57,687 nucleotides of DNA from a bacterium BMS3Abin03 (GTDB lineage: Bacteria > Bacteroidota > Ignavibacteria > Ignavibacteriales > Ignavibacteriaceae), in contig BDSV01000096.1 of NCBI GenBank assembly GCA_002898075.1, positions 1 to 57,687 on the forward strand, written 5' to 3'. Position numbers and translations under genes: made by a program. Under the pieces are notes generated by a model, which was given only the letters and a program-made list of their open reading frames with translations, searched no databases and was not told the origin of the DNA. Shown piece by piece: positions 22,395 through 57,240 of this stretch; position 1 is the stretch's first letter, and every line of letters starts with the position of its first letter.

Positions 22395-22421
22395 TTAAAT
22401 AAATCTCCTTTCAGTTTTAAA

Positions 22422-39698: not shown

Positions 39699-40970
39699 AT
39701 GCGTAGAAACTATATTAGACTATTCATCCTAATTTTTATCATTCCTACAAGTTACATTATTGGTCAGCAGCAAAATTCAATACTCGATTCACTAATTAGA
39801 ACAAGTATCGAGGTTAGTCCGAAAATTAATATGCTCAAAGCCAAAAGAAATGCTGCTTATAACAGGATAGAACAAAACTCGAACTTACCCGATCCGGTTT
39901 TAACACTCGGGTTACGTAATCTCCCTACAAATTCATTCTCATTCAATCAAGATCCGATGACCCAGACTGCTATCGGTCTTCGGCAAACTATCCCCTTTCC
40001 GGGGAAATTATCGGCAATTGGCGAAGCAAGTGCAATTGATACTTTAATTGTCGGGCAGGAAATAAAAGATGCTGAGAATGAAATCAGGATGCAGGTTACA
40101 AAAAAATATTATCAACTTAACTACATACGACGTGCAATTTTTTACGCCAAAGAAACCAAGAAATTATTAAAAGATATTTCTGATGTTGTTAGTGTTAAAT
40201 ACTCGGTATCGACTGCAAGCCAGCAGAATTTAGTAAAAATACAATTGGAGATTACGAACATTACTGATAAGATAGAAGACCTCCGGAGCAAAGAGTATTC
40301 TGTTCTGGCTGAACTCAATGCTTTCTTACTGCATAACACTAGGGCTGATATATCTACCGAACTTATCGATACGGTTAAAACGGTTAATCTTACAACTCAG
40401 CGGTTAGATTCATTAGCAAGAGTCAATCGTCCTTTTCTAAAAGGGATATTACTTTCCAAAGAAAAAGCAAAACTAAAAGAAGTAGTTGCCGAAAAAGAAT
40501 TTTATCCGAATTTCAGTTTAGGCGTCAACTATTCTTTCAGGCAGAATCTAGTTAAATCGGCAATGGGCGGAACAGACTTGTTTACAGTAGCCCTGGGAAT
40601 TTCGCTGCCGCTTAACTACGGCGGCAAATATACCGCTAAAGAACAAGAAGCTATTTCGCAACAGGAATTTCATTCCGAACAATACTTTCTTGCCCTGCAG
40701 TTTCTCGACGGAAAATTTGGGGCAGCAATAGCAAACCTGGAATCGCTTGTAGAGAGAATTAAACTTTTTGAGGATGGCTTGCTTCCCCAGGCACAGCAGA
40801 ATTTAAATTCTACGTTAGCCAGTTATCAGGTAAATGAAATTGACTTTATAAACGTAATTGATGCACAGGATCAGCTATTTAAAATCGAAACAAATTTATA
40901 TAAGCTAAAAACAGATTACTTAAAGGGAATAGCCGATCTGGAATTTTTAGTCGGTACAAGATTACAATAA
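39699..40970 (+). CDS. cusC: TolC/CusC-family outer-membrane efflux protein
   Basis: 423 residues with a signal peptide (LFILIFIIPTSYIIGQ) and two repeated coiled-coil halves typical of TolC: NAAYNRIEQNSNLPDPVLTL and SLGVNYSFRQNLVKSAMGGT. The ending IDAQDQLFKIETNLYKLKTD is characteristic. It forms the outer-membrane exit duct for the adaptor and pump encoded next (21-base gap). Confidence 0.88.
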   Translation: MRRNYIRLFILIFIIPTSYIIGQQQNSILDSLIRTSIEVSPKINMLKAKRNAAYNRIEQNSNLPDPVLTLGLRNLPTNSFSFNQDPMTQTAIGLRQTIPFPGKLSAIGEASAIDTLIVGQEIKDAENEIRMQVTKKYYQLNYIRRAIFYAKETKKLLKDISDVVSVKYSVSTASQQNLVKIQLEITNITDKIEDLRSKEYSVLAELNAFLLHNTRADISTELIDTVKTVNLTTQRLDSLARVNRPFLKGILLSKEKAKLKEVVAEKEFYPNFSLGVNYSFRQNLVKSAMGGTDLFTVALGISLPLNYGGKYTAKEQEAISQQEFHSEQYFLALQFLDGKFGAAIANLESLVERIKLFEDGLLPQAQQNLNSTLASYQVNEIDFINVIDAQDQLFKIETNLYKLKTDYLKGIADLEFLVGTRLQ

Positions 40971-40991
40971 TTAAAATCGGAGAAATAAACA

Positions 40992-42539
40992 GTGAAGAAC
41001 AAAAACATAATTATCGGAGTGCTTGCATTATCGTTAGTAGCGGCTTTGCTTTACATTTTCGTATTTAGTAAAAGCGGTAACAATGTAAATTCTTCGGGCA
41101 GCACAACTTCAGAGAACAACGGAGGTTCTAGTGAAAGAAAAGTTTTATACTGGCGTGCACCGATGAATCCAAGCGAGGTGTATGATAAACCGGGTAAATC
41201 CAGAATGGGAATGGACCTGGTTCCTGTATATGAAGATGAAGGAGCAGAAAGCGGCATTGTAAAAATAAGTGGAACGACACAGCAAAATATGAATGTGAAA
41301 ACCGCGATAGTTAAAAAAAGAAAGCTCCGTTCACAGGTAATTACAAACGGAATACTAGAAATTGATGAAAGGAAAGAATTTGTTGTCACTACAAAAGTAG
41401 GCGGCTGGATTGAAAAATTATATGTGAACTACACAGGACAAGAAGTTCGGAAAGGTGAAAAGCTGATTGATATTTATTCACCCGAGCTTGTTGCTGCCCA
41501 GCAGGAATACATCACTGCACTATCTTATGCTGCTTCCGTAATGAACAGTTCCGATAAAGATATTTCCATGAGCGGCGAAGGATTAATTAATAACAGTATT
41601 AGAAAATTAGAACTGCTTGATGTTAGCGACAAGGAAATTGAACGGCTGAGAACGACAAAAAAAATAAATAAATATGTTACGCTTTATGCACCGTTTAATG
41701 GTACTGTAATCAGCAAAGAGGTAATAGAAGGTGAAAAGATTAAACCGGGGTCTCCCCTGCTAAAAATTGCTGATTTAAGTAATTTATGGTTGATGGCTGA
41801 TATTTATGAATATGAGCTTGCAAAAATAAGTGTCGGCTCTTCGGCAGATATAAAATTTAATTTTTTGCCGGGTAAAACTTTTAAAGGGAAACTTTCGTTC
41901 ATCTATCCTACCCTGAACCCAAAAACAAGAACTGTAAAAGTTAGGATTGACATGCCTAATTATAAAAACGAATTAAAACCATCGATGTTTGCCACAATTA
42001 CAATAAACGGTAAAGACCTGGGTGATTACCCCGTGGTACCCGAAGATGCTATTATAAGAAGCGGGCAGACAAATATTATTATTCTCGCACTCGGTAATGG
42101 TAAGTTCAGACCCGTTGATGTTAAGCTTGGAAATTATGCCGAAGGTTACTACCAGGTATTGAATGGATTGACCGAAGGAAGCAAAATTGTTACTTCAGCT
42201 CAATTCCTTATCGACTCTGAAAGTAGTCTTAAAGCAGCTCTATCCCAGTTTACAAACACGGAAGGATCCGATGATATGTCCGGTATGGATATGAATGAAT
42301 CGACCGGTAAAGAAAATAAGGAAACAGAAAAAGAGCAAAGTCCGCTCATCAGAAAAGGTACTATTGATTTAGAATCGATAGATAAGAATAAAGACGGCAA
42401 AGTATATCAGGATATTATGGATTGGAATGTAATCTCGGATGAACCGGGAAGATGTCCTATATGCAACATGGAACTCCGTGAGTTCACACTTAAAAAAGCA
42501 AAAGAAAATTTATTAGAAAACGGTTTTAAAGTTAAATAA
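40992..42539 (+). CDS. cusB: CusB-type periplasmic adaptor with an extra metal-binding tail
   Basis: 515 residues from a GTG start. After a membrane anchor, residues 52-82 (YWRAPMNPSEVYDKPGKSRM, then GMDLVPVYED) match the Met-rich heavy-metal site of E. coli CusB, which also lacks cysteines. Then come the usual barrel, lipoyl and hairpin domains (LWLMADIYEYELAKISVGSS). A C-terminal extension (about 455-515, IDKNKDGKVYQDIMDWNVIS, CPICNMEL) is nearly the same as the end of the small protein at 46131-46523. The adaptor passes Cu/Ag-like ions to the CusA pump. Confidence 0.88.
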   Translation: MKNKNIIIGVLALSLVAALLYIFVFSKSGNNVNSSGSTTSENNGGSSERKVLYWRAPMNPSEVYDKPGKSRMGMDLVPVYEDEGAESGIVKISGTTQQNMNVKTAIVKKRKLRSQVITNGILEIDERKEFVVTTKVGGWIEKLYVNYTGQEVRKGEKLIDIYSPELVAAQQEYITALSYAASVMNSSDKDISMSGEGLINNSIRKLELLDVSDKEIERLRTTKKINKYVTLYAPFNGTVISKEVIEGEKIKPGSPLLKIADLSNLWLMADIYEYELAKISVGSSADIKFNFLPGKTFKGKLSFIYPTLNPKTRTVKVRIDMPNYKNELKPSMFATITINGKDLGDYPVVPEDAIIRSGQTNIIILALGNGKFRPVDVKLGNYAEGYYQVLNGLTEGSKIVTSAQFLIDSESSLKAALSQFTNTEGSDDMSGMDMNESTGKENKETEKEQSPLIRKGTIDLESIDKNKDGKVYQDIMDWNVISDEPGRCPICNMELREFTLKKAKENLLENGFKVK

Positions 42540-42571
42540 TCTGAAATAGCAGAGATTAAAGGAGTTTATTA

Positions 42572-45500
42572 ATGGTTCAAGGTACACAACAAGACGGCTT
42601 AATTTCCAAAATAATTGAGTGGTCACTTAATAATAAAATTTTAGTAATCATACTCACTGTCGCTCTTATTTTCGGTGGTATCTGGGCAATAAAAAACACT
42701 GCTGTCGATGCGATACCAGATTTGAGCGATGTACAGGTAATTATATATACCGAATATCCGGGTCAGGGTCCTCAGATTGTTGAAGACCAGGTTACCTATC
42801 CCCTAACAACTAAAATGCTTTCGGTACCTTATGCAAATGATGTCCGCGGTTATTCTTTCTTCGGGTTCTCGATGGTGTACATCATATTCGACGATGGGAC
42901 GGATATATACTGGGCGCGCAGCAGGGTGCTTGAATACTTAAGCTCTATGCAAAGCTCGTTGCCCGAAGGGGTAGCTCCTCAATTAGGTCCGGATGCTACA
43001 GGTTTGGGATGGGTTTACCAGTATATATTAAAATCCGATAAAAGAAGTTTACAGGAATTACGTTCAATTCAGGATTGGTTCTTACGTTATGAATTAACTG
43101 CCGTGCCGGGTGTTTCCGAAGTTGCCAGTATTGGCGGCTATGTGAAACAATACCAGGTTAGTGTCGATCCTACAAAACTTGCTTCTTACGACATACCGCT
43201 TAGCAAAATAAAGATGGCTATTAAGAAAAGTAACAACGATGTCGGCGGCAGATTAATGGAGATGGGCGAAACTGAATTTATGGTGAGAGGATTAGGATAT
43301 ATTAAAAATACAGAGGACTTGAAGAATGTAAATATTGGAACTAATAAAAGCACAGGAACACCTATTTTTCTCAGCGATGTTGCAAATATAGATATAGGAC
43401 CGGAGCTGCGCCGCGGTTTAGCCGACTGGAACGGTGAAGGTGAAGTTGTTGGCGGAATTATTATACAGCGGTTTGGTGAAAACGGGTTGGCTGTTATTGA
43501 ACGTGTTAAGAAACGATTGGAGGAATTAAAATCTTCTTTACCGGACGATGTAGAGATTATTACTGCATACGACAGGTCGGCTTTGATAAACAGGGCTGTC
43601 GATTATCTCGGCGATAAGCTCCTGGAGGAAGGTATTATTGTTGCGCTTGTAATTATTGGATTCTTGCTTCATTTCCGAAGTTCCCTTGTAGCTATTTTCA
43701 CCCTGCCAACAGCCGTACTTGCGGCATTGCTGGTAATGCACTTGCAGGGAATAAATGCAAATATAATGTCGCTTGGCGGCATAGCTATCGCCATTGGAGC
43801 AATGGTGGATGCTGCAATAATTATGGTTGAGAACTCACATTCACACATATTGCATAACCAGTTGCAGCCGAAAGAGAGACAGAAGCCTCATTGGGCTGTT
43901 ATAATGGAATCTTCTAAAGAAGTTGGACCGGCTATATTTTTCTCACTATTAGTTATAGTCGTTTCATTTCTGCCTGTATTTTCACTGGAACAACAAGAGG
44001 GACGTTTATTTAAACCTCTCGCTTTTACAAAAACTTACTCGATGGCAGCGGGCGCTATTTTATCTATTACCATAGTACCCGTACTAATGGGTTATTTTAT
44101 TCGCGGAAAGATGAAAAAGGAAGAAGATAATCCACTGACAAATTTCCTCATGAAATTGTACCATCCTGTAGTTGATTTTGTTATAAAGAGAAGATGGTGG
44201 GTTATAATAGTTGCAATTCTCACTGTAGTAATTACTTATATCCCTTTCTCTAAACTGGGTTCGGAGTTTATGCCTCCTTTGTACGAGGGCGATCTTCTTT
44301 ATATGCCTACTACTCTTCCGGGAATTTCAATAACCAAATCACGGGAAATCCTGCAGCAAACCGATAGAATTATTAAAACTTTCCCCGAAGTCAAATCGGT
44401 ATTCGGTAAAATCGGCAGGGCTGATACCCCAACCGATCCTGCACCTTTATCTATGATCGAGACAACTATTCAGCTAAAACCGGAAGATGAATGGCGGGAA
44501 GGGATGACCCCTGAAAAACTGATTGAGGAAATGAACACTGCTATTCAAATACCCGGCTTAACCAACGCATGGACAATGCCTATTAAAACAAGAATAGACA
44601 TGCTCTCTACAGGAATTAAAACACCGGTGGGTATTAAAATAAGCGGTCCCGATCTGGCGGTTCTTCAACGAATAGGGAAACAAATTGAAAGTGTTGCACG
44701 AACTATTACCGGTACACGTTCGGCGTTTGCAGAGCGTTCCGTTGGCGGTAATTATGTAGATTTCAAAATTAACCGGATTGCAATAGCAAGATACGGTCTT
44801 ACAATAGGTGACGTAGAGGATGTTTTTATGTCCGCAGTCGGTGGTATGAATATTACCAAAACTGTTGAAGGATTGGAAAGGTATCCCGTTAATCTTAGAT
44901 ACCAGAGAGCTTACAGAGAAAATCTCGAAGCACTGAGAAGAGTATTAATACCACTTCCAGGCGGCGGCAATATCCCTCTGGAAGAGCTTGGCGAGATTGT
45001 AGTATCGAAGGGTCCGCCCTCCATTAAATCCGAAAATGCCCGCCCGAATGCCTGGGTTTACATCGATATTGAAAACATTGATGTGGGAACATACGTAGAA
45101 AATGCTCAGCAAATTATAAGTGAAAAAGTAAAATTACCACCCGGTTATTCGCTTATATGGAGCGGACAATACGAGTATATGGAAAGAGCATCCAAAAAAT
45201 TAGCCCTGGTTATACCGGTAACATTACTATTGGTCATATTATTACTTTATTTCAATACAAAATCGTTTATAAAAACGGGAATAATTCTTCTTGCGCTTCC
45301 GTTTTCGATGGTCGGCTCTATCTGGTACCTCTATTTAGCCGATTACAATACCAGTGTTGCCGTATGGGTTGGAATAATAGCGCTGCTTGGTATTAGTGCG
45401 GAAACCGGTGTGGTAATGTTGCTTTACTTAGACATCGCTTACGAAAACTGGAAATCGAAGGGAATGCTTAAATCGTTAACGGCTCTGAAGGAATCCATAT

Positions 45501-45751
45501 TTGAAGGCGCTGTTAAAAGAATCAGACCGAAAATGATGACAATTACTGTTCTGTTCTTCGGTTTGCTTCCAATTGTTATCGGGCATGGAACCGGCGGTGA
45601 CGTAATGAAAAGAATTGCTGCCCCTATGATAGGAGGTATTTTTACAAGCTTTATTATGGAGTTGACAATTTTCCCGGCAGTGTTTTATCTCTTAAAGAAG
45701 AGAGAAATAAAAAAACTCAATTTAATAACTGAAAATAATCCGGAGACATAA
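42572..45751 (+). CDS. cusA: CusA/CzcA-family heavy-metal RND efflux pump
   Basis: 1059 residues, full length for HME-RND proteins. Seen: the N-terminal IIEWSLNNKILVIILTVALI helix, AVDAIPDLSDVQVIIYTEYP, SLGGIAIAIGAMVDAAIIMV (helix 4 proton-relay region), and a second hydrophobic block LLGISAETGVVMLLYLD, the CusA/CzcA-type helix motif. It drives metal export from periplasm or cytoplasm with protons. CusA-like by the adaptor; metal selectivity (Cu/Ag against Zn/Co) is inferred from the Met/His-rich neighbours. Confidence 0.92.
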   Translation: MVQGTQQDGLISKIIEWSLNNKILVIILTVALIFGGIWAIKNTAVDAIPDLSDVQVIIYTEYPGQGPQIVEDQVTYPLTTKMLSVPYANDVRGYSFFGFSMVYIIFDDGTDIYWARSRVLEYLSSMQSSLPEGVAPQLGPDATGLGWVYQYILKSDKRSLQELRSIQDWFLRYELTAVPGVSEVASIGGYVKQYQVSVDPTKLASYDIPLSKIKMAIKKSNNDVGGRLMEMGETEFMVRGLGYIKNTEDLKNVNIGTNKSTGTPIFLSDVANIDIGPELRRGLADWNGEGEVVGGIIIQRFGENGLAVIERVKKRLEELKSSLPDDVEIITAYDRSALINRAVDYLGDKLLEEGIIVALVIIGFLLHFRSSLVAIFTLPTAVLAALLVMHLQGINANIMSLGGIAIAIGAMVDAAIIMVENSHSHILHNQLQPKERQKPHWAVIMESSKEVGPAIFFSLLVIVVSFLPVFSLEQQEGRLFKPLAFTKTYSMAAGAILSITIVPVLMGYFIRGKMKKEEDNPLTNFLMKLYHPVVDFVIKRRWWVIIVAILTVVITYIPFSKLGSEFMPPLYEGDLLYMPTTLPGISITKSREILQQTDRIIKTFPEVKSVFGKIGRADTPTDPAPLSMIETTIQLKPEDEWREGMTPEKLIEEMNTAIQIPGLTNAWTMPIKTRIDMLSTGIKTPVGIKISGPDLAVLQRIGKQIESVARTITGTRSAFAERSVGGNYVDFKINRIAIARYGLTIGDVEDVFMSAVGGMNITKTVEGLERYPVNLRYQRAYRENLEALRRVLIPLPGGGNIPLEELGEIVVSKGPPSIKSENARPNAWVYIDIENIDVGTYVENAQQIISEKVKLPPGYSLIWSGQYEYMERASKKLALVIPVTLLLVILLLYFNTKSFIKTGIILLALPFSMVGSIWYLYLADYNTSVAVWVGIIALLGISAETGVVMLLYLDIAYENWKSKGMLKSLTALKESIFEGAVKRIRPKMMTITVLFFGLLPIVIGHGTGGDVMKRIAAPMIGGIFTSFIMELTIFPAVFYLLKKREIKKLNLITENNPET

Positions 45752-46096: not shown

Positions 46097-46130
46097 TTAA
46101 AACTTTATAACAAAAAAAGGAAACTGAAAA

Positions 46131-46523: not shown

Positions 46524-46779
46524 TTCTTTGTTATCTCGGGGATGGCCTGAAAGTAGGAATTATGGATGCGTAATTCCCACGAACCTTGTCAGACAGCATG
46601 CAGGAATGTGAATCTAATTTATTTCCGAATATTTTGGATCCCCGCCTGCCTGTCTGTCTGGCAGGAAGGTTTTCACAGGAATGACAAATAAATCTCACTT
46701 TTAAGTCAACCCTTAAGGTTATTTTACAAGCGATCAGTATTTAATAAATGTAAAACAAATTACTGAAAGGAGAATTGAG
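46524..46779. repeat. Dispersed-repeat gap between metal genes
   Basis: No gene seen. The stretch carries a CTGCCTGTCTGTCTGGCAGG palindrome near 46650 within a longer block (GGATCCCCGCC ... CACAGGAATGACAAAT) of the kind also present in 30330-30470. It separates the pump operon from the Met-rich gene. Confidence 0.5.
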
Positions 46780-47259
46780 ATGTTTAGCAAACAAGTTAAT
46801 AGTGTTATTGAAAAGCTAACATTAGTAGTAATTATAGTTTTTGTTGTTAACTTTTCCATCGATGCTCAGAATATGCAGAGCGGTATGCATCAGAATATGC
46901 AGGGAATGATGCAGAACAATATAATGAATATGCAGCAGATGATGAATAATATGAACGAAATGAGCGGTCAGATGGATAAAATGATGCAGGAGATGAATCA
47001 GAACAAGGGACAAATGCAGCATTCCGAGAGTATGATGCAATTTATGAACAACATGAACGATATGTCGAAGAATATGGACGGCATGCTCAACCAGATGAAC
47101 GAAATGATGGAAAATAAAGATATGATGAACAATGAAAAAATTATGAAACAGATGGGTGAAATGATGGAAAAAATGAATGGTATGATAAAAAACTACCACG
47201 AAATGTTAAAACAGTTGGAACAACAAAATCAAATACAAGCTTCACCCGATAACGATTAG
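46780..47259 (+). CDS. Exported, very methionine-rich coiled-coil protein
   Basis: 159 residues. A signal peptide (LTLVVIIVFVVNFSIDAQ) is followed by a mature part dominated by Met, Asn, Gln and Glu (QNMQGMMQNNIMNMQQMMNN, MMQFMNNMNDMSKNMDGML). Met is about a quarter of it, with MxxM and MMxxM spacing along predicted helices. Such clusters bind Cu(I)/Ag(I) in other proteins, so periplasmic copper storage or sponge is likely. I recognise no family. A ribosome-binding site (AAAGGAG) precedes the ATG, and the next gene starts 1 base after the stop. Confidence 0.72.
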   Translation: MFSKQVNSVIEKLTLVVIIVFVVNFSIDAQNMQSGMHQNMQGMMQNNIMNMQQMMNNMNEMSGQMDKMMQEMNQNKGQMQHSESMMQFMNNMNDMSKNMDGMLNQMNEMMENKDMMNNEKIMKQMGEMMEKMNGMIKNYHEMLKQLEQQNQIQASPDND

Positions 47260-47260
47260 C

Positions 47261-48121
47261 ATGAGCGGGCGAAGCATAAATATCACTCTAATTTTGAGCG
47301 GTATCGTTTTATTCCTGATTAGTTTCAGTGAAGCCGGAATCGCTCAGGGTAAATTTATAGGAAATGCAACCTTGCAAGTTGTCGGCGGTAATTTTTCCGA
47401 TGGATCGCACTATGCATCGACTTATGTTTACGGAGGATTGAGATACCAGGAACAGAGATTTAATCTTAACCTGAACATCCCCGTAGTCTTTGCCGGTAAC
47501 GGTTCATTCACACAGGTTGGCGGAATTTATATCCCGAACAGTCACAATGGTGAAGATTCGGGCGGCATGTGGCACAATGATTCAACATCCCACGGCTCTA
47601 TGATGGATGACGAAAACGGAATGATGTCTTCACTTAATGCAGGTATTGGTGATCTTTATCTGTACGGAAGCTATAAAGTATTTCTTCAGAAAAATGTTCT
47701 GCCAGAAATTTCATTAGATAGTTATATTAAATTTCCTACTGCCACATCTTCTTTGAACATCGGAACGGGTAAGTTCGATTTTAACATAGCGGTTTCATTA
47801 AGGAAAACTTTCAACAAATTTTTATTCTATACACAATTGGGATATTTGTTCGTTGGGAAGACCGAGGGATCGGATGTTGTAAATCCGGTTACGTTCAGCA
47901 TAGGAATCGGGGCTTACCTGGGCAAAGGGAATCATGCTTTGTTTGCCGGCTACGATTCATATTCAACAATTGTAAATGGTTTTGCTTCACCCAAACAGTT
48001 TGCCCTCGGATACAGTTACATCGTAAGTCCGACTTTAAGTTATAATTTTATCACCTCTTTCGGTTTAAATAATTCTACCTCCGATTTTTCGTTATCGGGA
48101 GGTATTAACTTTGGTATTTAG
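47261..48121 (+). CDS. Outer-membrane beta-barrel protein, paralogue 1
   Basis: 286 residues with a signal peptide ending near IAQGK, a predicted barrel, and a Met/His-rich loop at 105-125 (GGMWHNDSTSHGSMMDDENG) that could bind metal. Shared with the protein at 56204-57091: the IKFPTATSSLNIGTGKFDF block (there IKIPTASKTTQISTGKIDF), and matching loops and ending. It resembles outer-membrane transporter proteins of unknown substrate. The Met-rich gene is directly upstream, so a link with metal uptake or export is plausible. Confidence 0.65.
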   Translation: MSGRSINITLILSGIVLFLISFSEAGIAQGKFIGNATLQVVGGNFSDGSHYASTYVYGGLRYQEQRFNLNLNIPVVFAGNGSFTQVGGIYIPNSHNGEDSGGMWHNDSTSHGSMMDDENGMMSSLNAGIGDLYLYGSYKVFLQKNVLPEISLDSYIKFPTATSSLNIGTGKFDFNIAVSLRKTFNKFLFYTQLGYLFVGKTEGSDVVNPVTFSIGIGAYLGKGNHALFAGYDSYSTIVNGFASPKQFALGYSYIVSPTLSYNFITSFGLNNSTSDFSLSGGINFGI

Positions 48122-48154: not shown

Positions 48155-49108
48155 ATGAAATGCAACAATTGCGGTGCTCATAATAAAGATGATAATAAAT
48201 TTTGTGTTAAGTGCGGAGCTAAATTAGAGAAACAGCAAAATCTTACATCGATATTCTGCCCTGAGTGCGGTACGGAAAATCAATTGAAGAATAAATTTTG
48301 TATTAGCTGCGGAAGCGAATTAAACATCCGGCAAAATCAAAATATTGAAAATAAATCTGCAGATATACATAGGAAAAAGCAGCATAAACCGCATCGACAA
48401 AAGAGATATGCAAAGGGAAAAAACTTCAGTTTGATTGAAGATATTAAGAAACACAAGGTTACATCGGCAGTAGTAATTATAATTGCCGGCTACCTTCTAT
48501 TTCAGTTTATTCCGCAGGAACCGAAAGTAAACACAAACGTTTCGTCCCGTTTTCAGCAAACTAATATTCCTGTCAACAGGGGAAATACTAAGCTAAATGA
48601 GATAGCTTCTAAATTTGTATGCTCCTGCGGTACTTGCGGAGAACTTTCGCTTGAAACCTGCGGCTGCCCGACTGCGGAAGAAGAGCATGCGCTCATTAAT
48701 ACTATGTTAAGTCAAAATCTTAGTGTTGATGAAATTGTTGTTGCTGTTGCAAATAAATACGGCTGGTTAAAAAGCGAATACTACCCGCAGTATAAACAGA
48801 TAGATAAAAGTAAAGTTTGGTTCGGCGGAACCAGCCAAACATTAAGCAATACAAAAGGAAATAATCTTGTATCAAACGGTAATGTATCAAATATCGCCAC
48901 GTTAGCCGATCGCTATACAATCATAACCCAGTTTGAATGTCCTTGCGGTCAATGCGACATAAAAGAACTTTCGGAATGTAATTGTACTCATCCGAAAGGA
49001 GCTATAGAAGTGAAAGGATACATCGATCAATTGATTGCGGAAAATGATTTAACAGCGAGCCAGATAATTGAAAAAGTTAATACTAAATACGGCGGAAGAA
49101 AAATCTAA
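48155..49108 (+). CDS. Zinc-ribbon protein with two CcmH-like modules
   Basis: 317 residues. Two N-terminal zinc ribbons (MKCNNCGAHNKDDNKFCVKC, then CPECGTENQLKNKFCISC) lie in the cytoplasm; one membrane helix (about 107-125, VTSAVVIIIAGYLLFQF) follows. Outside are two copies of a Cys-rich module: FVCSCGTCGELSLETCGCPT and FECPCGQCDIKELSECNCTH, each ending in an NKYG/TKYG helix. These resemble the CcmH/CycL thiol-redox domain of cytochrome c maturation. The proposed role is thiol or haem handling with the CcmF encoded at 53012. The arrangement is unusual. Confidence 0.65.
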   Translation: MKCNNCGAHNKDDNKFCVKCGAKLEKQQNLTSIFCPECGTENQLKNKFCISCGSELNIRQNQNIENKSADIHRKKQHKPHRQKRYAKGKNFSLIEDIKKHKVTSAVVIIIAGYLLFQFIPQEPKVNTNVSSRFQQTNIPVNRGNTKLNEIASKFVCSCGTCGELSLETCGCPTAEEEHALINTMLSQNLSVDEIVVAVANKYGWLKSEYYPQYKQIDKSKVWFGGTSQTLSNTKGNNLVSNGNVSNIATLADRYTIITQFECPCGQCDIKELSECNCTHPKGAIEVKGYIDQLIAENDLTASQIIEKVNTKYGGRKI

Positions 49109-49133
49109 TAAAAAAAATGGAAGGGATAACGAT

Positions 49134-49805
49134 ATGGTACGTTTCTGTCCTAATTGCGGCAACAAAATAGAACCGGGCAGTAAATTCTGCGGTAGCTGCG
49201 GCAGCAGCTTACCGAAACAAACAGTACCGGGCAGTGATGGCTCTAAGAAAGAAATTGTACTCGGACAGACAAAGAAACCCAACTATAAAATTCTTATTAC
49301 AATATTCTATGTAGCTGTTCTTGCCGGAAGCTTGTTTTACTATTTTGCTACCACAATGACAAAAGAAGAAATGGTAATTAGCGAACAGCCGGAAGTATTA
49401 TCCGGTATCGAATATCCTTCATCCCGCTACGATATGCAGCCGGTGGAAGCACAGGTTGAGAACGGTAAGATAATATTGCCGCTCGACGAAGTACTGGATA
49501 AAAAGTTTGTGAGATTTGTTTATAAAGGTACAACTTCCGAGATACCGCTGCTGGCATATATAAGTGAAGAAGGAAAGCTGATAACATCAATAAGTATGTG
49601 CGAACCGTGCAATTCAACTACTTTCCATATTTCCGGGAATAAACTGATTTGTAATTCATGCGGTTCAACCTGGGATCTTAATGATCTCGATGCTATAAGC
49701 GGATCTTGCGGCAAGTATCCTCCCGACCCAATACCAAGCAGTGTTAACGGAAACAAGATTCAAATTGATGAATCGGCAGTCCTCAACTGGAAAAGAAGAG
49801 TTTAA
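49134..49805 (+). CDS. Zinc-ribbon DUF2318 (FtrD-like) membrane protein
   Basis: 223 residues starting at 49134, where GGAAGG lies about 10 bases upstream; the frame is also open to an ATG at 49068 inside the previous gene. A zinc ribbon (VRFCPNCGNKIEPGSKFCGSCG) precedes a membrane helix (KILITIFYVAVLAGSLFYYF). The outer domain has ISMCEPCNSTTFHISGNKLI, then CNSCGSTWDLN and SGSCGKYPPDPIPSSVNG, the DUF2318 pattern of FtrD-like metal/redox proteins. In Campylobacter P19-type iron systems a DUF2318 gene also precedes FtsX- and LolD-like genes, as here. Confidence 0.75.
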   Translation: MVRFCPNCGNKIEPGSKFCGSCGSSLPKQTVPGSDGSKKEIVLGQTKKPNYKILITIFYVAVLAGSLFYYFATTMTKEEMVISEQPEVLSGIEYPSSRYDMQPVEAQVENGKIILPLDEVLDKKFVRFVYKGTTSEIPLLAYISEEGKLITSISMCEPCNSTTFHISGNKLICNSCGSTWDLNDLDAISGSCGKYPPDPIPSSVNGNKIQIDESAVLNWKRRV

Positions 49806-49818
49806 GCGGAAGGAAACC

Positions 49819-50979
49819 ATGAACATTTATTCAATTTCAGTTCAAAGCTTGAAGAGAAGAAGAACAAAAACTTTCTTCCTTATTTTCGGATTGGTGTTAG
49901 CTGTTTCATCGGTTGTAACACTTACGGTAATCTCAAAAAACATGAGCGAAAGTGTTTCGAAAGATCTGGATGAATACGGTGCGAATATTATTATCACACC
50001 AAAATCAAATGAGCTTGCACTAAATTACGGCAGTTTATCTATCGGTGAATTATCATACGACCGGAGTAATTTATTTGAAAGTGACGTTGATAAAATTAAG
50101 GAGATCAAGAACTTTAAAAACATAAGTGTTATTTCGCCAAAGCTTTTAGTTGTTGACAAGATAGATTCCCTACAAACACTCATAGCCGGAATTAAGTTTG
50201 ATAAGGAATATGCGCTGAAAAAATGGTGGAAAATAGATGGCAGAATTCCTGAAAAAGCTTCCGGAGTTCTACTCGGTTCTGAAGCATCGACAAAACTGAA
50301 GCTGAATTTGAATGATAAAATTCTCATAAAAGGTACAAACTTTTCCGTCGTTGGTGTAATCCAACCGACAGGGTCACAGGATGATGCAATGGTTTTCATA
50401 GACCTCCATATTGCTCAGCAGTTATTCGATAAAGGTGAAAACCTGAGCTTGATTGAGCTTTCGGCTTTGTGTTACGATTGCCCGGTTGAAGAAATAGTAA
50501 GACAGATTTCACAAAAGCTGCCTAACGCAAAAGTTAGCGCAATAAGGCAGTCGATTGATTCAAAAATGGCAGCGGTTGCCAAGTTCGAAGATTTTTCGTT
50601 CGGTATCTCAATAGTGATACTTATTATCAGTTTGCTGATTGTATTCACAAACGTTAACTCTTCATTGAATGAGAGGATAAGAGAGATTGGCGTATTTAAA
50701 GCTATTGGTTTCAGAAACAGGGATATTTTTAAAATAGTATTTTTTGAAGTGTTGATTGCAAGCGGAATAGCCGGATTACTTGGTTATTTAATAGGTATAG
50801 CTGCTGCAAACATTATTATGCCTTTGCTCGATTCCAATGCTGTAATCGGGTTTAAGTTCGACCCTGAAATATTTCTGATAGCATCCATGTTATCAATTGT
50901 TGTTGGAATTATGGCGGCATTTTACCCTGCTTACAAAGCAACTAAATTAGATCCTACAGTAGCATTTAGAACTTTATAA
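49819..50979 (+). CDS. FtsX/MacB-type ABC transporter permease
   Basis: 386 residues from 49819, chosen because GGAAGG precedes this ATG and MNIYSISVQSLKRRRTKTFF is a standard MacB-family N terminus; an upstream ATG (49741) would overlap the DUF2318 gene. One helix near the start, a periplasmic domain (about 45-260) and three C-terminal helices (FSFGISIVILIISLLIVFTN, NERIREIGVFKAIGFRNRDI, ending AFYPAYKATKLDPTVAFRTL) give the FtsX layout. It is encoded just before its ATPase. The substrate could be a metal-, haem- or lipoprotein-linked process. Confidence 0.88.
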   Translation: MNIYSISVQSLKRRRTKTFFLIFGLVLAVSSVVTLTVISKNMSESVSKDLDEYGANIIITPKSNELALNYGSLSIGELSYDRSNLFESDVDKIKEIKNFKNISVISPKLLVVDKIDSLQTLIAGIKFDKEYALKKWWKIDGRIPEKASGVLLGSEASTKLKLNLNDKILIKGTNFSVVGVIQPTGSQDDAMVFIDLHIAQQLFDKGENLSLIELSALCYDCPVEEIVRQISQKLPNAKVSAIRQSIDSKMAAVAKFEDFSFGISIVILIISLLIVFTNVNSSLNERIREIGVFKAIGFRNRDIFKIVFFEVLIASGIAGLLGYLIGIAAANIIMPLLDSNAVIGFKFDPEIFLIASMLSIVVGIMAAFYPAYKATKLDPTVAFRTL

Positions 50980-50991
50980 TATGGTATTAAA

Positions 50992-51729
50992 ATGAGTTTA
51001 ATAGAAACACAAAATCTTATAAAAAACTACCAAAGCGGCGGCGAAGTAGTAAATGCCGTAAATGGTGTATCGTTCGTAATAGAACAAGGCGATTTTGTTA
51101 CGGTAATGGGTCCATCCGGTTCTGGTAAAAGCACGCTGTTAACTATACTCGGCGGACTGACAAGACCCACAGCAGGTAATGTTATTGTGGATTCGATAAA
51201 CATTTCCGAACTTACTTCGAATCAAATAGCTGCTTTCAGAAGAGAGTATATCGGTTTTGTGTTTCAATCATTTCAACTTATACCGTATTTAACGGTGCTT
51301 GAAAATGTTATGCTGCCGCTGATAATAAAGAACGACACACAACCCGTAAAAAAAGATAAAGCCGATACAATACTTGAAAAAGTCGGGTTAGATAAAAAAG
51401 CGAACCGTCTCGTCGAACAATTAAGCGGCGGAGAGCAGCAAAGAGTGGCAATTGCACGTGCAATAGTAAATGAACCATTAATTATCCTTGCTGATGAACC
51501 TACCGGAAACCTGGATACAAATACCGGTTACGAAATTCTCGAATTGTTCACACAATTAAACAACGAAGGTAAAACTATAATTATTGTTACTCATAATGAA
51601 GAGTTTAAATACTTAACCGATTATACACTTCTTTTTAAAGACGGCAGATTAAATGATAGAATAATCAATCAAAAAGATAATTGGACTGCAGCAGCTGCAA
51701 ACAAAAATTCTGTTTTAAACAGTAATTGA
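50992..51729 (+). CDS. LolD/MacB-type ABC transporter ATPase
   Basis: 245 residues. Walker [11 protein letters not shown]-loop [17 protein letters not shown], signature [19 protein letters not shown], Walker [14 protein letters not shown], and H-loop [10 protein letters not shown] are all intact. It lies 12 bases after the FtsX permease and powers it. Confidence 0.92.
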
Positions 51730-51753
51730 ACAGGAACAAAAAGAATTTTAACA

Positions 51754-52911
51754 GTGAAAAAGTTAATAATATATTACATAATCATCTTTACCTGGCTTGG
51801 TTTTAATACTATGTTTTCCCAGACTTTGTCTTCAGAGTTTGAAACGGCAAAACAATTACTTCTCCAAAGGAACTATAACGATGCAATCGTTATCCTGGAT
51901 AAAATATTAAACGAGAATAAAGAATATTTTGAAGCGGCAAATCTATTGGCTAAAGCTTATACGAACCTGGGACTGTACGAAGAAGCAGAAAAGTTTTACA
52001 TCAAATCTTTAAGCATAAAGCCGGATAATTATGATGCGATTGCGGGTATGGGAAGTATGTTCTTTTTAAAAGGCAATTACAATGCAGCAGAGTTATATTT
52101 AAGGAAAGCCGGGAAAATGAACGGGAATTCTGCAAGAGTCCTTTCGTTGCTGGGAAAAATCGGGATGATTAAAGGTGATTACAAAGAAGCCAAACGGATT
52201 TTTTTGGAATTAACAGAGATAGATTCAACAAACTCGGAAGCTCTTACAAATCTTGGTATTATCTATCAACAAGAAGGCGATGTGGCTAAAGCTGAAATGT
52301 ATTTCAGAAAGGAAGTAAATCACTATCCGAACGATGAACTGGCACGTATGAACCTCGGAGTATTTTACGGCAGCATAGGAGAGTTTCATAAGTCGATAGT
52401 AGAGTTGAATAAAGCAAAAGAACTTAACCCTAAAGATGAAAACGTTTATTTGTCGCTCGGTGTCTTCTATCTGCAAAAGAAAATTTACGGAGAAGCGGAG
52501 AAGAATTTTCGGGATGTGCTGGCTCTGAACAGGTTTAATCCGGATGCCTACTTCTATCTTATGCTGTTAAAAATGAAAAAAGGCGATTTGGATACTGCTT
52601 TAATTTACGGTAATAAGCTAACAAAGTTAAATGATGAATATCCTCAGGCACATCTTGTAATTTCGAATATTTATTTGCTAAAGGATGATTATAAAACCGC
52701 TATTGAACATGCAAAAATCGAGATTTCAAAATTCCCTAAAAACCCGGAGGGATATCTCCTGCTTGCCGGACTTTACTACTACGCGGGAGACGAATTAAAT
52801 TTTAACATAGTTAAAGTAAAGTTTCAAAGATTATTCGGAAAGGAATTTAATTTGAAAAATCCTCTCACGAAAGACAACTTTTTATTAGAAAGCGAGTTGA
52901 TGGGAAGATGA
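51754..52911 (+). CDS. Exported TPR protein
   Basis: 385 residues from a GTG start. A signal-like N terminus (KKLIIYYIIIFTWLGFNTMF) is followed by about ten TPR units (LLAKAYTNLGLYEEAEKFYI, NLGVFYGSIGEFHKSIVELN, SLGVFYLQKKIYGEAEKNFR). TPRs mediate protein-protein contact. In cytochrome c maturation the TPR protein CcmI/NrfG holds the apocytochrome for CcmF/CcmH. The location between CcmH-like and CcmF genes suggests the same here, but this is inferred from position only. Confidence 0.8.
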   Translation: MKKLIIYYIIIFTWLGFNTMFSQTLSSEFETAKQLLLQRNYNDAIVILDKILNENKEYFEAANLLAKAYTNLGLYEEAEKFYIKSLSIKPDNYDAIAGMGSMFFLKGNYNAAELYLRKAGKMNGNSARVLSLLGKIGMIKGDYKEAKRIFLELTEIDSTNSEALTNLGIIYQQEGDVAKAEMYFRKEVNHYPNDELARMNLGVFYGSIGEFHKSIVELNKAKELNPKDENVYLSLGVFYLQKKIYGEAEKNFRDVLALNRFNPDAYFYLMLLKMKKGDLDTALIYGNKLTKLNDEYPQAHLVISNIYLLKDDYKTAIEHAKIEISKFPKNPEGYLLLAGLYYYAGDELNFNIVKVKFQRLFGKEFNLKNPLTKDNFLLESELMGR

Positions 52912-53009
52912 TTATTAAAATTAGAACATTTAGTTTGTTTGTTGGCTCTGAAGCTGAATTAAACATCTACTCCTTTTATTCTTCAACTAAACAATATTTG
53001 CGGAGATAA
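52908..53009 (+). CDS. Possible 33-codon peptide gene
   Basis: ATG overlaps the TPR stop (ATGA) and the frame runs MIIKIRTFSLFVGSEAELNI to a TAA 2 bases before ccmF. Coupling by overlap makes translation possible, but the composition is ordinary and the frame may be chance. Confidence 0.22.
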   Translation: MIIKIRTFSLFVGSEAELNIYSFYSSTKQYLRR

Positions 53010-53011
53010 TA

Positions 53012-55420
53012 ATGTTAGGAAATATTTTAATTGTTATGACGATACTTACAGGGGTGTTTACATTAATAATGTATTACTATACATATAAGGGTTACGCCAA
53101 TACATTATCGCTTGCGAGAAATGGATATTATATAATGACTTCTTTAGTTGTAGCAGCAAGCGCATTATTACTTTATTATATATTAAGTCATCAGTTTCAG
53201 TACAGCTATGTTTTTGAATACAGCAGTAAAGATTTATCCTTTGGATTGTTATTATCGACATTCTTTGCCGGTCAGGAAGGCAGCTTCCTGTTATGGTTAT
53301 TATTTACAGCGCTGCTTGGTATATTCTTAATTAAATATCTGTCGGACGATACGAAAAAAGAATCTGCATTTATGCTTGTTTACACACTTGCAGCTTTGTT
53401 TTTAGTGATTTTAATAAATCCATTATTAAAAAATCCCTTCGCATATATATGGCAGGATCCAAGTTATCTCGAACTAAAATATTTTAACCCCGCCTATTAT
53501 AATTTACCGGAATTGAAAGGATTCCTTGCTGTTAATAAAAATACCGGCGGAGAATTTATAAAAATAGTTCCCGAACTTAAAGCAGCATTATCCGGTCTTG
53601 GAATTTCGATGAATGAATTTTTAATTCAAGGGAAAGGATTAAATCCGCTGCTGCAAAATTTCTGGATGCAGATTCATCCGCCGTTGTTATTTGTTGGGTT
53701 TGCAATGACAATAATTCCTTATTCATTTGCAATATCTGCAATAATAAGAAATGAATATAAATCATGGATAAAAGAATCGCTGCCATGGTTAGCCGCCGCA
53801 ATGATGGTGCTTGGATTTGCTATAATGGTGGGCGGCTATTGGGCTTACGGTGTTTTGGGATGGGGCGGATTCTGGGGCTGGGACCCCGTTGAAAATTCCA
53901 GTTTAGTTCCCTGGATAATCGGTGTAGCTGCTATTCACACAATGCTTATTCAACGAAGAACCCAGAAAACCGGAGGAACGGGCAAGTATATTAAAACAAA
54001 TCTCGTCCTGTCAATTTTAACGTTTGTGTTTGTAATTTACAGCACATTCCTTACAAGAAGCGGCATTCTTTCCGAAGCTTCCGTTCATTCTTTTGTTGAC
54101 CCCGGTATGCTAACGTATCTCTTTCTTTTAGGATTTATCTTAACTTTTACAATTTTGGGTATAGGCGGAGTTTTATACAGATGGAAAGAATTAAAAGTAA
54201 TCTCAAACGGCAATGAATATTTGCTTAGCCGGGAAAGCGGACTTATTTTCGGTGCCGCTCTTCTAATCGGTTCGGCAATTATTATTACGGTCGGAACATC
54301 GGCGCCAATCTTCGGAAGCGCGGTGGATGTTAAATTTTACAACCAGTTGAATTTACCAATTGCCATCCTGATAACTATTTTAATCTCGCTTAGCTTGTTC
54401 CTTAAATGGAAATCGACAGTACCGAAAGATTTTCTGAAGCAAATTAGTTATTACATGAGTATTACAGCAATATTAACAACTGCAGTTGTCTTAATTAGCC
54501 CGATCGAATCTCTTATTAATATAATTTTCACATTTGCAGTACTCTTTACGATAACCGTTAATGTAGTTCTGTTAATAAAGACAATAAAAGTAAGCTATAT
54601 AAATACCGGAGGTCATTTAGCCCATATAGGTGTTGGGGTATTTCTTCTGGGCGTTTTGTTATCGGGTAATTATACTATTTCCCGGCAGCTCGACCTGCCT
54701 ATAGGTCAAAATGTAAAGTTTAATGATTATCAATTGAAATTCATCGGGCATGAGCCAATCGAGGACGGAAATAAATTTGCATTTAATGTCGAAGTAAATG
54801 ACGGTGATAAAATTAAGATAGCTTCACCGGTTATGTTCAGCTCTGAATTTAACAATAACGTGATGCGCGAACCGGATATACTCGAAGGTTTGAGCAAAGA
54901 CTTTTACATCTCGCCGTTAGGATTTTCGGAAGGAGGCAATTCGGATAATTCAAATAAAGTGGAAGTTGTTTTGGAAAAGGGCGAATCGGTTGATTTCAAT
55001 AATTCCAAAATTACATTTTCAAAATTCTCGATTTCTGACGAAGATATGTCTGCAATGTTAGAAGGAAAAGATTTTGAAATGGGCGCTGATTTATCTGTTG
55101 AATACAAAGGTGATGTATATGCATCTAACCCTCATATAAAATTTACTAATGATGGACAGAAAATTATTGAATCTATTGTTAAACCGGCAAATATCAAATT
55201 GGCTGTTACAAAAATTGATGCTACCGGCTCTATAGACTTAATTATCGGAACATTAGATTCAAAAGAAGAAACGGGTGAAGAACAAGTTGAAACGCTAACA
55301 GTTGAAGCAAGTATTAAACCGAATATTAATTTAGTCTGGCTTGGCGTGCTTTTAATCACTATTGGGTTTATAATCGCTGCATTACGCAGAAGAAATGAAC
55401 TCATTGGTAGAAAGGAATAA
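53012..55420 (+). CDS. ccmF: CcmF-type cytochrome c haem lyase subunit
   Basis: 802 residues with 15 or so membrane helices. The haem-handling WWD motif is complete (WGGFWGWDPVENSSLVPW), preceded by FWMQIHPPLLFVGFAMTI and FAGQEGSFLLWLLF, which are conserved CcmF segments with His ligands. A soluble periplasmic domain (about 570-760) and a last helix end the protein. CcmF attaches haem to CxxCH motifs of exported cytochromes. ccmABCDE are not in the window, while a CcmH-like and a TPR gene are nearby. Confidence 0.9.
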   Translation: MLGNILIVMTILTGVFTLIMYYYTYKGYANTLSLARNGYYIMTSLVVAASALLLYYILSHQFQYSYVFEYSSKDLSFGLLLSTFFAGQEGSFLLWLLFTALLGIFLIKYLSDDTKKESAFMLVYTLAALFLVILINPLLKNPFAYIWQDPSYLELKYFNPAYYNLPELKGFLAVNKNTGGEFIKIVPELKAALSGLGISMNEFLIQGKGLNPLLQNFWMQIHPPLLFVGFAMTIIPYSFAISAIIRNEYKSWIKESLPWLAAAMMVLGFAIMVGGYWAYGVLGWGGFWGWDPVENSSLVPWIIGVAAIHTMLIQRRTQKTGGTGKYIKTNLVLSILTFVFVIYSTFLTRSGILSEASVHSFVDPGMLTYLFLLGFILTFTILGIGGVLYRWKELKVISNGNEYLLSRESGLIFGAALLIGSAIIITVGTSAPIFGSAVDVKFYNQLNLPIAILITILISLSLFLKWKSTVPKDFLKQISYYMSITAILTTAVVLISPIESLINIIFTFAVLFTITVNVVLLIKTIKVSYINTGGHLAHIGVGVFLLGVLLSGNYTISRQLDLPIGQNVKFNDYQLKFIGHEPIEDGNKFAFNVEVNDGDKIKIASPVMFSSEFNNNVMREPDILEGLSKDFYISPLGFSEGGNSDNSNKVEVVLEKGESVDFNNSKITFSKFSISDEDMSAMLEGKDFEMGADLSVEYKGDVYASNPHIKFTNDGQKIIESIVKPANIKLAVTKIDATGSIDLIIGTLDSKEETGEEQVETLTVEASIKPNINLVWLGVLLITIGFIIAALRRRNELIGRKE

Positions 55421-55423
55421 AAG

Positions 55424-55699
55424 ATGAAAAAAGTAACTGCTTACGTAAATACTATTAGAGTTCACTGGCTCGTCCATGAACTTCAAAAAATCGGGATAGA
55501 TGAAATAATGGTTACAGAATACTTCAAGCCGAAATCACAAATATCCCGCCTTGAATTAAAGTGCGGTAATATCTGGGTAGATCAGGTAAGAAAAATTATC
55601 CACGATGTAGGAACAACAGGAATTGCCTGTGATCATTATTTTGAAGTTACAGATCTGCATCCGGATGATAAATCAATCTTCCCCGATTTGTACGGATGA
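55424..55699 (+). CDS. Short PII-like protein
   Basis: 91 residues starting KKVTAYVNTIRVHWLVHELQ, with the beta-alpha-beta order and GIDEIMVTEYF strand of PII, and RLELKCGNIWVDQVRKII in the middle. It resembles the PII-like protein at 45755-46096 but is about 20 residues shorter and lacks the GDGWVFV-type signature. Three bases separate it from ccmF. Function unknown; nucleotide or metal sensing is possible. Confidence 0.65.
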   Translation: MKKVTAYVNTIRVHWLVHELQKIGIDEIMVTEYFKPKSQISRLELKCGNIWVDQVRKIIHDVGTTGIACDHYFEVTDLHPDDKSIFPDLYG

Positions 55700-55725
55700 T
55701 CAATTATAAAATGGAAGGTATACAA

Positions 55726-56223
55726 ATGGTCAAATCATTAATCAATTTTAATTCTTGGAGAATAATATTAATTCTGTTGATAACTTTTTTAATTGCAGCT
55801 CCTGCCGTATCAGTTTTTGCACAGGAATCAAATAATGCTTCGACAAATCCGGGTCATTATATTGATACGCTCGATCTCCAAATTCAAAAGCTTGGAAAAT
55901 TAAAAATCAAGATCGACAAACTTCAACTGACGGTAAATTCAAACAAATATCTCGTGATAAAGAAAGAAATGGAGAGTATGCATGCAATCGATCAGTTTAT
56001 AGCTTTAGCATCGCTTACTATAAATGTTACCGATGATGTCGATAAAATATTACAGCATTTAAAAATAATTGCAGCCACCGATAAATTAATACAAAACAAC
56101 GATACGAGAATGAACCTTCAAAAATTAATTGGTAATACAGGAATTATAATTAATGGTTTGGATAGAATGATAATAAATTTAGAAAATTCCCAAAAAATAC
56201 TTAATGAACATAATGCAAAATAA
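55726..56223 (+). CDS. Exported helical protein of unknown function
   Basis: 165 residues from 55726, where ATGGAAGGTATACAA supplies a GGAAGG site; an earlier in-frame ATG exists at 55696. A signal peptide (IILILLITFLIAAPAVSVFA) precedes a mainly helical mature part (DTLDLQIQKLGKLKIKIDKL, TDDVDKILQHLKIIAATDKL) with coiled-coil character and no Cys. No family recognised. It overlaps the next gene by 20 bases. Confidence 0.65.
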   Translation: MVKSLINFNSWRIILILLITFLIAAPAVSVFAQESNNASTNPGHYIDTLDLQIQKLGKLKIKIDKLQLTVNSNKYLVIKKEMESMHAIDQFIALASLTINVTDDVDKILQHLKIIAATDKLIQNNDTRMNLQKLIGNTGIIINGLDRMIINLENSQKILNEHNAK

Positions 56224-57091
56224 AAATAAAATAAACTACAGCTCGAACGCTAATATTTGGGGTGCAAAAAAAGTTGGATATGTATTTCTAATTACTATTC
56301 TCTTTTTCAATATTTCGGTACTCGCTCAGGAGAAGTGGAACCTAAACGCTTCGTTTGAATATGCAGGAAGCCATAATGTAAACGGCGCATATAATAATTT
56401 ATTCTACCTTGCCGGCGGAGTAAAATATACATCCGGTAAATATAGTATAGATGTAATACTTCCTATCGTAGCTCAGAACGGCGGTATGTACACCCAACTG
56501 GGTATGATGGTATTGAGAGACAGCGGTTTGAATCACCCCGATTCAACATTAAACCAGGGACATATAAAAGGTTCGGTGGTGGATGGCGAAACTATTACAA
56601 ACCTAGCTGCCGGCTTTGGTGATTTGCTATTAATTGGAAATTTTAAATTGGTTAGTGAAAAACGAAACTTACCAACTATATTCGCTGAATCATTTATAAA
56701 AATTCCAACCGCATCTAAAACAACACAAATAAGCACCGGTAAAATCGATTTTGGTTTATCGTTTAACATCCAAAAAACAATCCTGGGTATTATCGGTTCA
56801 GCAAAAGTCGGGTACTGGTTCTTAAGAAATCCCGATGCTCACACAATAAAAAATCCTGTTGCAGTTGCCTTAAGCATAGGTAAGAAAATTAAGAAAGATA
56901 AATATGCAATTTTTTTAATGTATGAAGGGTATTCAAAGATAGTTGCTAACTACTCTGCACCAAAAGAACTTTCAGTGCTATTGCAGTATTTCATTTCGTC
57001 GAATACAATATTATCTATTAAAGCATCGACGGGATTAAGCAGTTCATCACCGGATTTCTTGTTCGAAAGTAAATTTGATTTCAACATTTAA
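56204..57091 (+). CDS. Outer-membrane beta-barrel protein, paralogue 2
   Basis: 295 residues. A long N terminus leads to a signal segment (VGYVFLITILFFNISVLAQE) and a barrel, ending SKFDFNI. It aligns with the protein at 47261-48121 across most of its length, but it lacks the Met/His-rich loop of that copy. Start could be 56204 or the second ATG at 56213. Function unknown; probably an outer-membrane transporter of the same metal cluster. Confidence 0.65.
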   Translation: MNIMQNKNKINYSSNANIWGAKKVGYVFLITILFFNISVLAQEKWNLNASFEYAGSHNVNGAYNNLFYLAGGVKYTSGKYSIDVILPIVAQNGGMYTQLGMMVLRDSGLNHPDSTLNQGHIKGSVVDGETITNLAAGFGDLLLIGNFKLVSEKRNLPTIFAESFIKIPTASKTTQISTGKIDFGLSFNIQKTILGIIGSAKVGYWFLRNPDAHTIKNPVAVALSIGKKIKKDKYAIFLMYEGYSKIVANYSAPKELSVLLQYFISSNTILSIKASTGLSSSSPDFLFESKFDFNI

Positions 57092-57240
57092 TACAAATAA
57101 CAGGTTTATCCAGGTTAGGTAAAAGGGATGATTATAATGCGAGTTCTATATGACCAAAACAAGAAATTATAAATAAATAATATTTATTATTTTAAACATT
57201 TATATCTTTGGTATAATCTTTACAGGATTAATTTTTGCAG

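Follow-up and report, generated by a model that had tools for sequence, protein, structure and literature searches.

A conserved unit of four genes, here termed Q1-Q2-Q3-Q4, is encoded by bacterium BMS3Abin03 (Ignavibacteria, Ignavibacteriaceae) within a stretch of 57,687 nucleotides (assembly GCA_002898075.1, contig BDSV01000096.1, positions 1–57,687; hereafter 'the window'). This core joins a CcmH-like protein, an FtrD-like/DUF2318 protein, an FtsX-type permease and a LolD-type ATPase, and it usually lies within a CusCBA-type Cu(I)/Ag(I) efflux cluster. In the window, it is followed by two further genes, Q5 and Q6, and an earlier note had joined all six into a hybrid machine coupling metal or haem export to haem attachment. 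The six genes are indeed adjacent, co-directional (all + strand) and closely spaced (gaps of 25, 13, 12, 24 and 100 bp), and the domain identities proposed for them are borne out by Pfam, profile and fold comparison. As a single six-part machine, however, they do not hold together, because the core occurs without the TPR protein and CcmF in many genomes. As that note had supposed, no description of the six-gene composition was found in the literature searched.

48155–49108, + strand: Q1, double Zn ribbon, one transmembrane (TM) helix and two CcmH-like modules
49134–49805, + strand: Q2 (ATG at 49134), Zn ribbon, TM helix and FtrD-like/DUF2318 domain
49819–50979, + strand: Q3, FtsX/MacB-type permease
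50992–51729, + strand: Q4, LolD-type ATPase
51754–52911, + strand: Q5, TPR protein, an optional member
53012–55420, + strand: Q6, second CcmF paralogue, an optional member

A promoter and terminator scan returned signals only at the level expected by chance, and no conclusion on transcription units is therefore drawn.

Among 80 loci encoding Q2 relatives, taken from 84,980 species genomes, an FtsX-type permease is present at 74, a LolD-type ATPase at 72, a Q1 relative at 45, a resistance-nodulation-division pump at 35 and CcmF at 27. In an unbiased co-occurrence sample of 149 genomes spread evenly over the class, the CcmH-like module is found in 14, FtrD in 31 and both in 13 (hypergeometric 1.5e-9), and the two genes lie no more than about 3.5 kb apart on one contig in 12 of 15 cases. 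The evidence throughout comes from sequences and predicted structures, many of the genomes are incomplete metagenome assemblies, kinship inflates simple counts, and the genomes for whole-genome counts were partly hand-picked.

The core is kept across Ignavibacteriota, Calditrichota, Omnitrophica and Thermodesulfobacteriota and, without Q1, also in Firmicutes and Chloroflexi. The usual order in Ignavibacteriota is pump, PII-like protein, heavy-metal-binding-domain (HMBD) protein, Q1, Q2, Q3, Q4; the core is then followed by TPR protein and CcmF (L074, L085, L098 and the window), by CcmF and no TPR protein (L078, L081–L083) or by neither (L088, L094, L105). In Calditrichota, CcmF precedes Q1; the pump is present in L093 and L097 and missing from L095, L109 and L110. 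The Firmicutes FtrD-FtsX-LolD genes adjoin a complete ccm operon in L142, L145, L146 and L151 and are accompanied by a second permease in L136, L138 and L152. Partners of FtrD elsewhere include a true CcmH encoded 35 bp upstream of it (L147), CcdA plus TlpA (L131, L126) and a DsbD-like protein (L136, L139, L144). Loci were also identified in the cultured relatives Melioribacter roseus and Stygiobacter electus. Homologues on plasmids were searched for, and none was found.

Immediately upstream of FtrD, Deltaproteobacteria-type loci (L114 8786–9748, L119 8909–9955, L117 2904–3833, L134 2045–3016) encode another envelope protein anchored by a Zn ribbon, with a SurA-like domain at its N terminus. 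Firmicutes-type loci L130, L149 and L152 carry a BlaI-like regulator upstream of FtrD, and L130 and L152 carry an M56-like membrane protein as well; these genes may form a sensor.

To our knowledge, DUF2318/FtrD proteins have no known biochemical function and have so far been tied to one iron-uptake system. Q2 matches Zn_Ribbon_1 and PF10080 (FtrD-like, 87.8 bits). Its FtrD domain has the pattern CxxC-x13-CxxC-x15-C, and the Cys residues concerned (C158, C161, C175, C178 and C194, with residue 1 at the codon at 49128) are invariant in 61/61 sequences. An AlphaFold2 model of the protein (mean predicted local distance difference test score 92) resembles Rieske ferredoxins, both by Foldseek (2i7f, E 4.8e-5) and by VIA-align (toluene 4-monooxygenase ferredoxin, Z 10.0, root-mean-square deviation 2.4 over 105 residues). 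A profile alignment to 12 ordinary Rieske proteins of related genomes matches C158 (of CEPC) to the Cys of the first Rieske ligand pair, whose His is faced by P160, and matches C175 and C178 to the Cys and the His of the second pair; taken alone, this sequence similarity is weak (hhalign, probability 15% and E 0.0018). On the evidence chiefly of the fold match, together with the Cys register, we predict a Rieske fold for the FtrD domain, with its ligand positions taken by four Cys; this prediction is new here. Rieske [2Fe-2S] ferredoxins would thus share their fold and ligand-loop positions with Q2, whereas their two-Cys, two-His ligand set (Cys-x-His/Cys-x2-His) is replaced in Q2 by four Cys (Cys-x2-Cys/Cys-x2-Cys), and Q2 has a fifth invariant Cys. 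We found nothing joining DUF2318 with Rieske proteins in the literature searched. Together with the coupling of the module to copper efflux and haem-lyase genes, the predicted fold supplies a cofactor and an electron path that can be tested, and a candidate for a link from copper stress to cytochrome assembly.

Q3 contains FtsX and MacB_PCD domains, and Q4 matches ABC_tran (PF00005, 125 bits) and LolD (TIGR02211, 235 bits). In these domains the pair resembles the MacB/LolCDE type VII ATP-binding cassette (ABC) transporters, with MacB as the best solved match to Q3 and YtrF and LolF also among the closest; kinship with HrtB was considered, and HrtB is absent from the matches to solved structures at E<=0.001. 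Unlike MacB, the ATPase and permease are encoded by separate genes and no MacA was found among the core genes, the only adaptor nearby being the CusB of the pump, so that the pair departs from a MacAB-type exporter. A further difference is a periplasmic C218-x2-C221-P222 (CxxCP) motif, invariant in 36/36 aligned permeases, at which MacB has no aligned Cys. Overall, the motif occurs in 72/86 sequences, the 14 without it being second permease copies of Firmicutes-type loci. The invariant CxxCP of the permease is new here.

In Q1, Pfam recognizes Zn_Ribbon_1/DZR, and CcmH (PF03918) scores 18.2 bits, below the 25-bit cut-off that eight Q1 relatives of these islands pass (25.7–30.5 bits). Profile searches with both CcmH-like modules uphold the family kinship that had been proposed: module 1 matches a true CcmH profile at 96% (E 3.6e-9, hhalign), and module 2 matches it more weakly (34%) and module 1 at 98.6% (profile–profile). 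The best fold matches of the CcmH-like module are two CcmH structures (2HL7, Z 8.2; 2KW0, Z 6.9), and module 1 thus shows both the three-helix CcmH fold and the profile similarity. The CcmH active-site motif LRCxxCQ is not in Q1; in its place, both modules read FxCxCGxC-x7-CxC (Cys 156, 158, 161, 169 and 171 in module 1; 262, 264, 267, 275 and 277 in module 2), with these Cys invariant in the alignment. As modelled, then, the Q1 modules share the fold of CcmH but not its Cys pattern, which is new here. In Q1 and Q2 alike, the single TM helix that follows the Zn ribbons suggests that the latter are cytoplasmic.

Among the genomes of Ignavibacteriota and Calditrichota that were searched, all PF03918 matches are at island Q1, except for one on a separate contig (G150). 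With that exception, Q1 is a candidate partner for the Ccm systems without CcmH in the genomes tested. It is unlikely to be the general CcmH of the class, as it occurs in 14/149 genomes and CcmF in 145/149. The latter count, reached irrespective of the core, speaks against the six genes as one unit, and cytochrome c maturation in the class can do without the island.

The relation of the island to the standard Ccm system could be followed in the window's own genome, where contig C222 carries ccmA-B-C-E-F, including a CcmF of its own. No ccmH or ccmG was found near that operon, a PF03918 search of the genome found no CcmH, and none of ccmA, B, C and E lies beside the island CcmF. In the CcmE of contig C222 (L035 6080–6469), the haem-binding His is replaced by Cys, and its CPSKY sequence belongs to the CXXXY type (PMC9084895). 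CcmB is present in 30/36 related genomes. The earlier note had asked whether genomes with the six genes lack ccmABCDE, and its case was to fail if a complete standard Ccm system with its own CcmF existed elsewhere in the genome; the case does fail on this count, as a separate ccmABCEF with its own CcmF exists here, although an ordinary CcmH is lacking. The separate operon and the CcmB count together rule out the island as a replacement for ccmABCDE, and likewise as a substitute for ccmABCE.

The island CcmF, Q6, contains Cytochrom_C_asm and CcmF_C domains and retains all four conserved His as well as the WWD motif, and in nearly all genomes tested such a gene is an addition to the standard CcmF. 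In a maximum-likelihood tree of 55 CcmFs, those of Ignavibacteriota islands form one clade (12 rows, 100/99) whose neighbours are the standard CcmFs of these taxa (100/100 for the 25 rows combined), and those of Calditrichota islands form another (9 rows, 100/100) outside the Ignavibacteriota group; the four His and WWD residues are kept in 21/21 rows of the two clades. Because the clades are separate, CcmF joined the core at least twice independently, in Ignavibacteriota and in Calditrichota. The link of CcmF to the core recurs across phyla and is not due to chance; CcmF lies within 10 kb of FtrD at 27/80 loci, with well under one expected. The higher figure of 19/36 comes from genomes partly chosen for having CcmF, so that 27/80 is the fairer count. 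Q5 matches TPR domains including TPR_CcmH_CycH (48.4 bits, cut-off 42) and may have a CcmI-like role; proteins of its type also occur in some islands without CcmF. The island resembles the System I lyase CcmF-CcmH-CcmI (and NrfEFG and SirEFG) in its CcmF with WWD and four His, its CcmH fold and its TPR protein. It differs in that its CcmH-like modules are in tandem, with CxCGxC-CxC instead of LRCxxCQ, and in adding FtrD-FtsX-LolD and having no gene for a substrate cytochrome. In L160 and L162, an island-clade CcmF lies outside the core; one adjoins a TPR protein and a PII-like protein, and the other lies just downstream of a CusA pump.

The six genes are accompanied in the window by the following:

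39699..45751, + strand: CusC/CusB/CusA-type tripartite efflux pump (39699–40970, 40992–42539, 42572–45751)
45755–46096, + strand: PII-like protein (PF00543, 59.6 bits)
46131–46523, + strand: heavy-metal-binding-domain protein (PF19335 HMBD, 23.0 bits, cut-off 23.6)
55424–55699, + strand: small PII-like protein, beginning 3 bp past Q6 (CcmF), with no Pfam match

The neighbouring pump is of the copper type, as the earlier note had recognized, and lies upstream on the same strand. It has OEP and HlyD_D23+HMBD domains (Pfam), its best match is CusA (1203 bits, vs 544 bits for ZneA), the Met residues of the Escherichia coli CusA Cu(I) site are conserved in the alignment, and it carries the HME4-type motif AIGAMVDA. 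With CusA similarity and the Cu(I)-site Met both present, the pump genes are those of CusCBA Cu(I)/Ag(I) efflux; unlike that system, the island cluster holds PII-like proteins and the Q1-Q4 core inside. The PII-like and HMBD proteins recur at the same place in related islands, and homologues of the small PII-like protein stand beside the core in other islands, some of them without CcmF.

DUF2318 genes have been reported to map almost always with FetMP-type clusters (PMC6083913), and the predicted kinship of DUF2318-FtsX-LolD with the Fet (P19/FTR1) iron system is borne out by the same FtsX and LolD genes and the same Cys motif. The FetABCD part of Campylobacter jejuni FetMP-FetABCDEF resembles the core in its DUF2318 protein, FtsX-type permease and LolD-type ATPase, in its Cys motif and in having a thiol oxidoreductase partner (PMC6083913, PMC10783030); the Cys spacing of Q2 equals the published FetA motif CxxC-x13-CxxC-x14/15-C (PMC6083913). 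There are also differences. Neither FetM (FTR1) nor FetP (P19) was seen beside the module; the core has one permease vs two, a Zn-ribbon/TM anchor vs eight TM helices and YHS, and a CcmH-like protein vs thioredoxins, and it alone has the copper island and CcmF context. FTR1 was considered as a partner of the module and rejected, as it is absent from 31/37 genomes with the module and, in the remaining 6/37, never matched beside it (P19 was checked by eye among the neighbours); in the window's genome it is on another contig. The setting of the core is thus different from and wider than the Fet iron system, against the published association, and the DUF2318/FtrD module occurs in several phyla without that iron system, coupled to copper efflux and haem-lyase genes.

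All three core membrane proteins (Q1, Q2 and Q3) have conserved extracytoplasmic Cys. We tentatively favour, at somewhat less than even confidence, the reading that the core is an ATP-driven envelope thiol/Fe-S redox module serving the copper island, and that some lineages captured a duplicate haem lyase. In the scheme that we infer, the LolD-FtsX pair would be a MacB-type mechanotransmission ABC transporter whose periplasmic part carries the CxxC, with FtrD and the tandem CcmH-like thiol protein next to it in the membrane, and the all-Cys Rieske-fold domain of FtrD would probably hold a [2Fe-2S] cluster or another Cys4 metal site. Driven by ATP, movement of the permease would allow electrons or thiols to pass between its CxxC and the FtrD domain, and between that domain and the CxCGxC-CxC sites of Q1, and periplasmic thiols and metals would be held reduced and handled. 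In these genomes, the module would serve the Cu(I)/Ag(I) efflux island; where a duplicated CcmF and TPR protein were captured, they would make up, together with the CcmH-like protein, a set matching a CcmF-CcmH-CcmI lyase in composition, probably keeping cytochrome c maturation running under copper stress. A passage in PMC6247083, citing Durand 2015, reports that copper impairs periplasmic cytochrome c assembly, which makes an auxiliary lyase in a copper island plausible. The arrangement suggests a link between copper resistance, redox control in the envelope and the assembly of cytochromes. The Campylobacter relative supports iron uptake, with a proposed redox role and the thioredoxins FetE/F as partners (PMC10783030). 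An ABC-energised or -gated thiol/Fe-S relay fits the iron, copper and haem-lyase settings, since all three need a controlled extracytoplasmic redox state and thiols; Cu(I) handling fits one of them and haem export another. A broader proposal, which we consider doubtful, is that a previously undescribed ATP-driven envelope redox complex, composed of a MacB-type ABC transporter with CxxC, an all-Cys Rieske-fold FtrD and a CcmH-fold thiol protein, carries electrons or thiols across the envelope and is the shared engine of iron uptake by FTR1, detoxification of copper(I) and maturation of cytochrome c, which are otherwise regarded as separate processes. Several observations weigh against the redox-module reading: thiol oxidoreductases are near only about 10/35 loci without Q1, several FtrD relatives beside ccm operons have no first Cys (C158), and no CXXCH cytochrome was found in the island. 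CusA and CcmF are, moreover, each missing from many core loci, so that neither is required for the basic job of the core.

The Cys-rich domains might instead bind Cu(I) and not carry electrons, with Q1, FtrD and the permease CxxC taking up Cu(I)/Ag(I) at the membrane or from chaperones and passing it to CusCBA. The CxC and CxxC motifs of Q1–Q3 suit Cu(I), and a CusA-type pump, an HMBD protein and Met-rich proteins are constant company in Ignavibacteriota; yet Firmicutes, Chloroflexi and several Calditrichota have the core or FtrD-FtsX-LolD but no CusA with it, as is also the case beside ccm operons, and the iron-uptake role of the Campylobacter relative (PMC10783030) speaks against it as well, which leaves a copper relay rather unlikely. 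That core, pump and CcmF merely share a metal-resistance island while acting separately, CcmF being a spare copy, would agree with the dispensability of CcmF, the TPR protein and CusA where the core stays, and with extra CcmF copies in class genomes without Q1. We think this unlikely, given the excess of CcmF near FtrD, the separate CcmF clades that joined the same core and the order and spacing that are kept.

The earlier note's own proposal, in which an HrtBA-like FtsX-LolD pair moves haem or metal to FtrD, the CcmH-like protein and CcmF for attachment, has in its favour that FtrD-FtsX-LolD adjoins ccm operons or CcmF in several phyla and that the literature treats HrtBA haem exporters alongside the MacB family. 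Nothing found, however, singles out metal or haem as a substrate exported by the ABC pair. Among solved structures, the permease is closest to MacB, YtrF and LolF, with HrtB absent from the matches, the genome retains CcmABC for haem export, and the Cus and Fet contexts would be left unexplained, all of which makes this proposal quite improbable. Equally, CcmF with a CcmH-like and a TPR protein resembles NrfEFG/SirEFG in composition (PMC6976685), as a haem lyase dedicated to an atypical cytochrome would. The island encodes no CXXCH cytochrome, though, and strong NrfA matches, sought for an NrfA-type lyase, are not associated with island CcmF (7/17 genomes with it vs 5/9 without, p 0.68), the window's own genome having a 28-bit partial match only; a dedicated lyase is therefore very unlikely.

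Several features surrounding the core were also recorded. It is flanked at 45755–48121 and 55424–57091 of the window by similar cassettes of a PII-like protein, one or more small exported proteins and a predicted outer-membrane protein, perhaps through an old duplication; a passage in PMC7726332 discusses a PII-NG protein with metal efflux in Geobacter sulfurreducens. A very Met-rich exported protein is encoded at 46780–47259, with homologues recurrent in related islands, and its composition suggests Cu(I)/Ag(I) binding. Membrane proteins of the DUF2231 type, with conserved His and possibly haem-binding, recur beside islands (window 57235–57687, L078 13147–13764, L086 9305–10366). Farther upstream, at 12156–24651 of the window, genes for a molybdopterin oxidoreductase, an Fe-S subunit and molybdenum-cofactor synthesis sit between two closely similar outer-membrane-type proteins (12156–13241 and 23623–24651).

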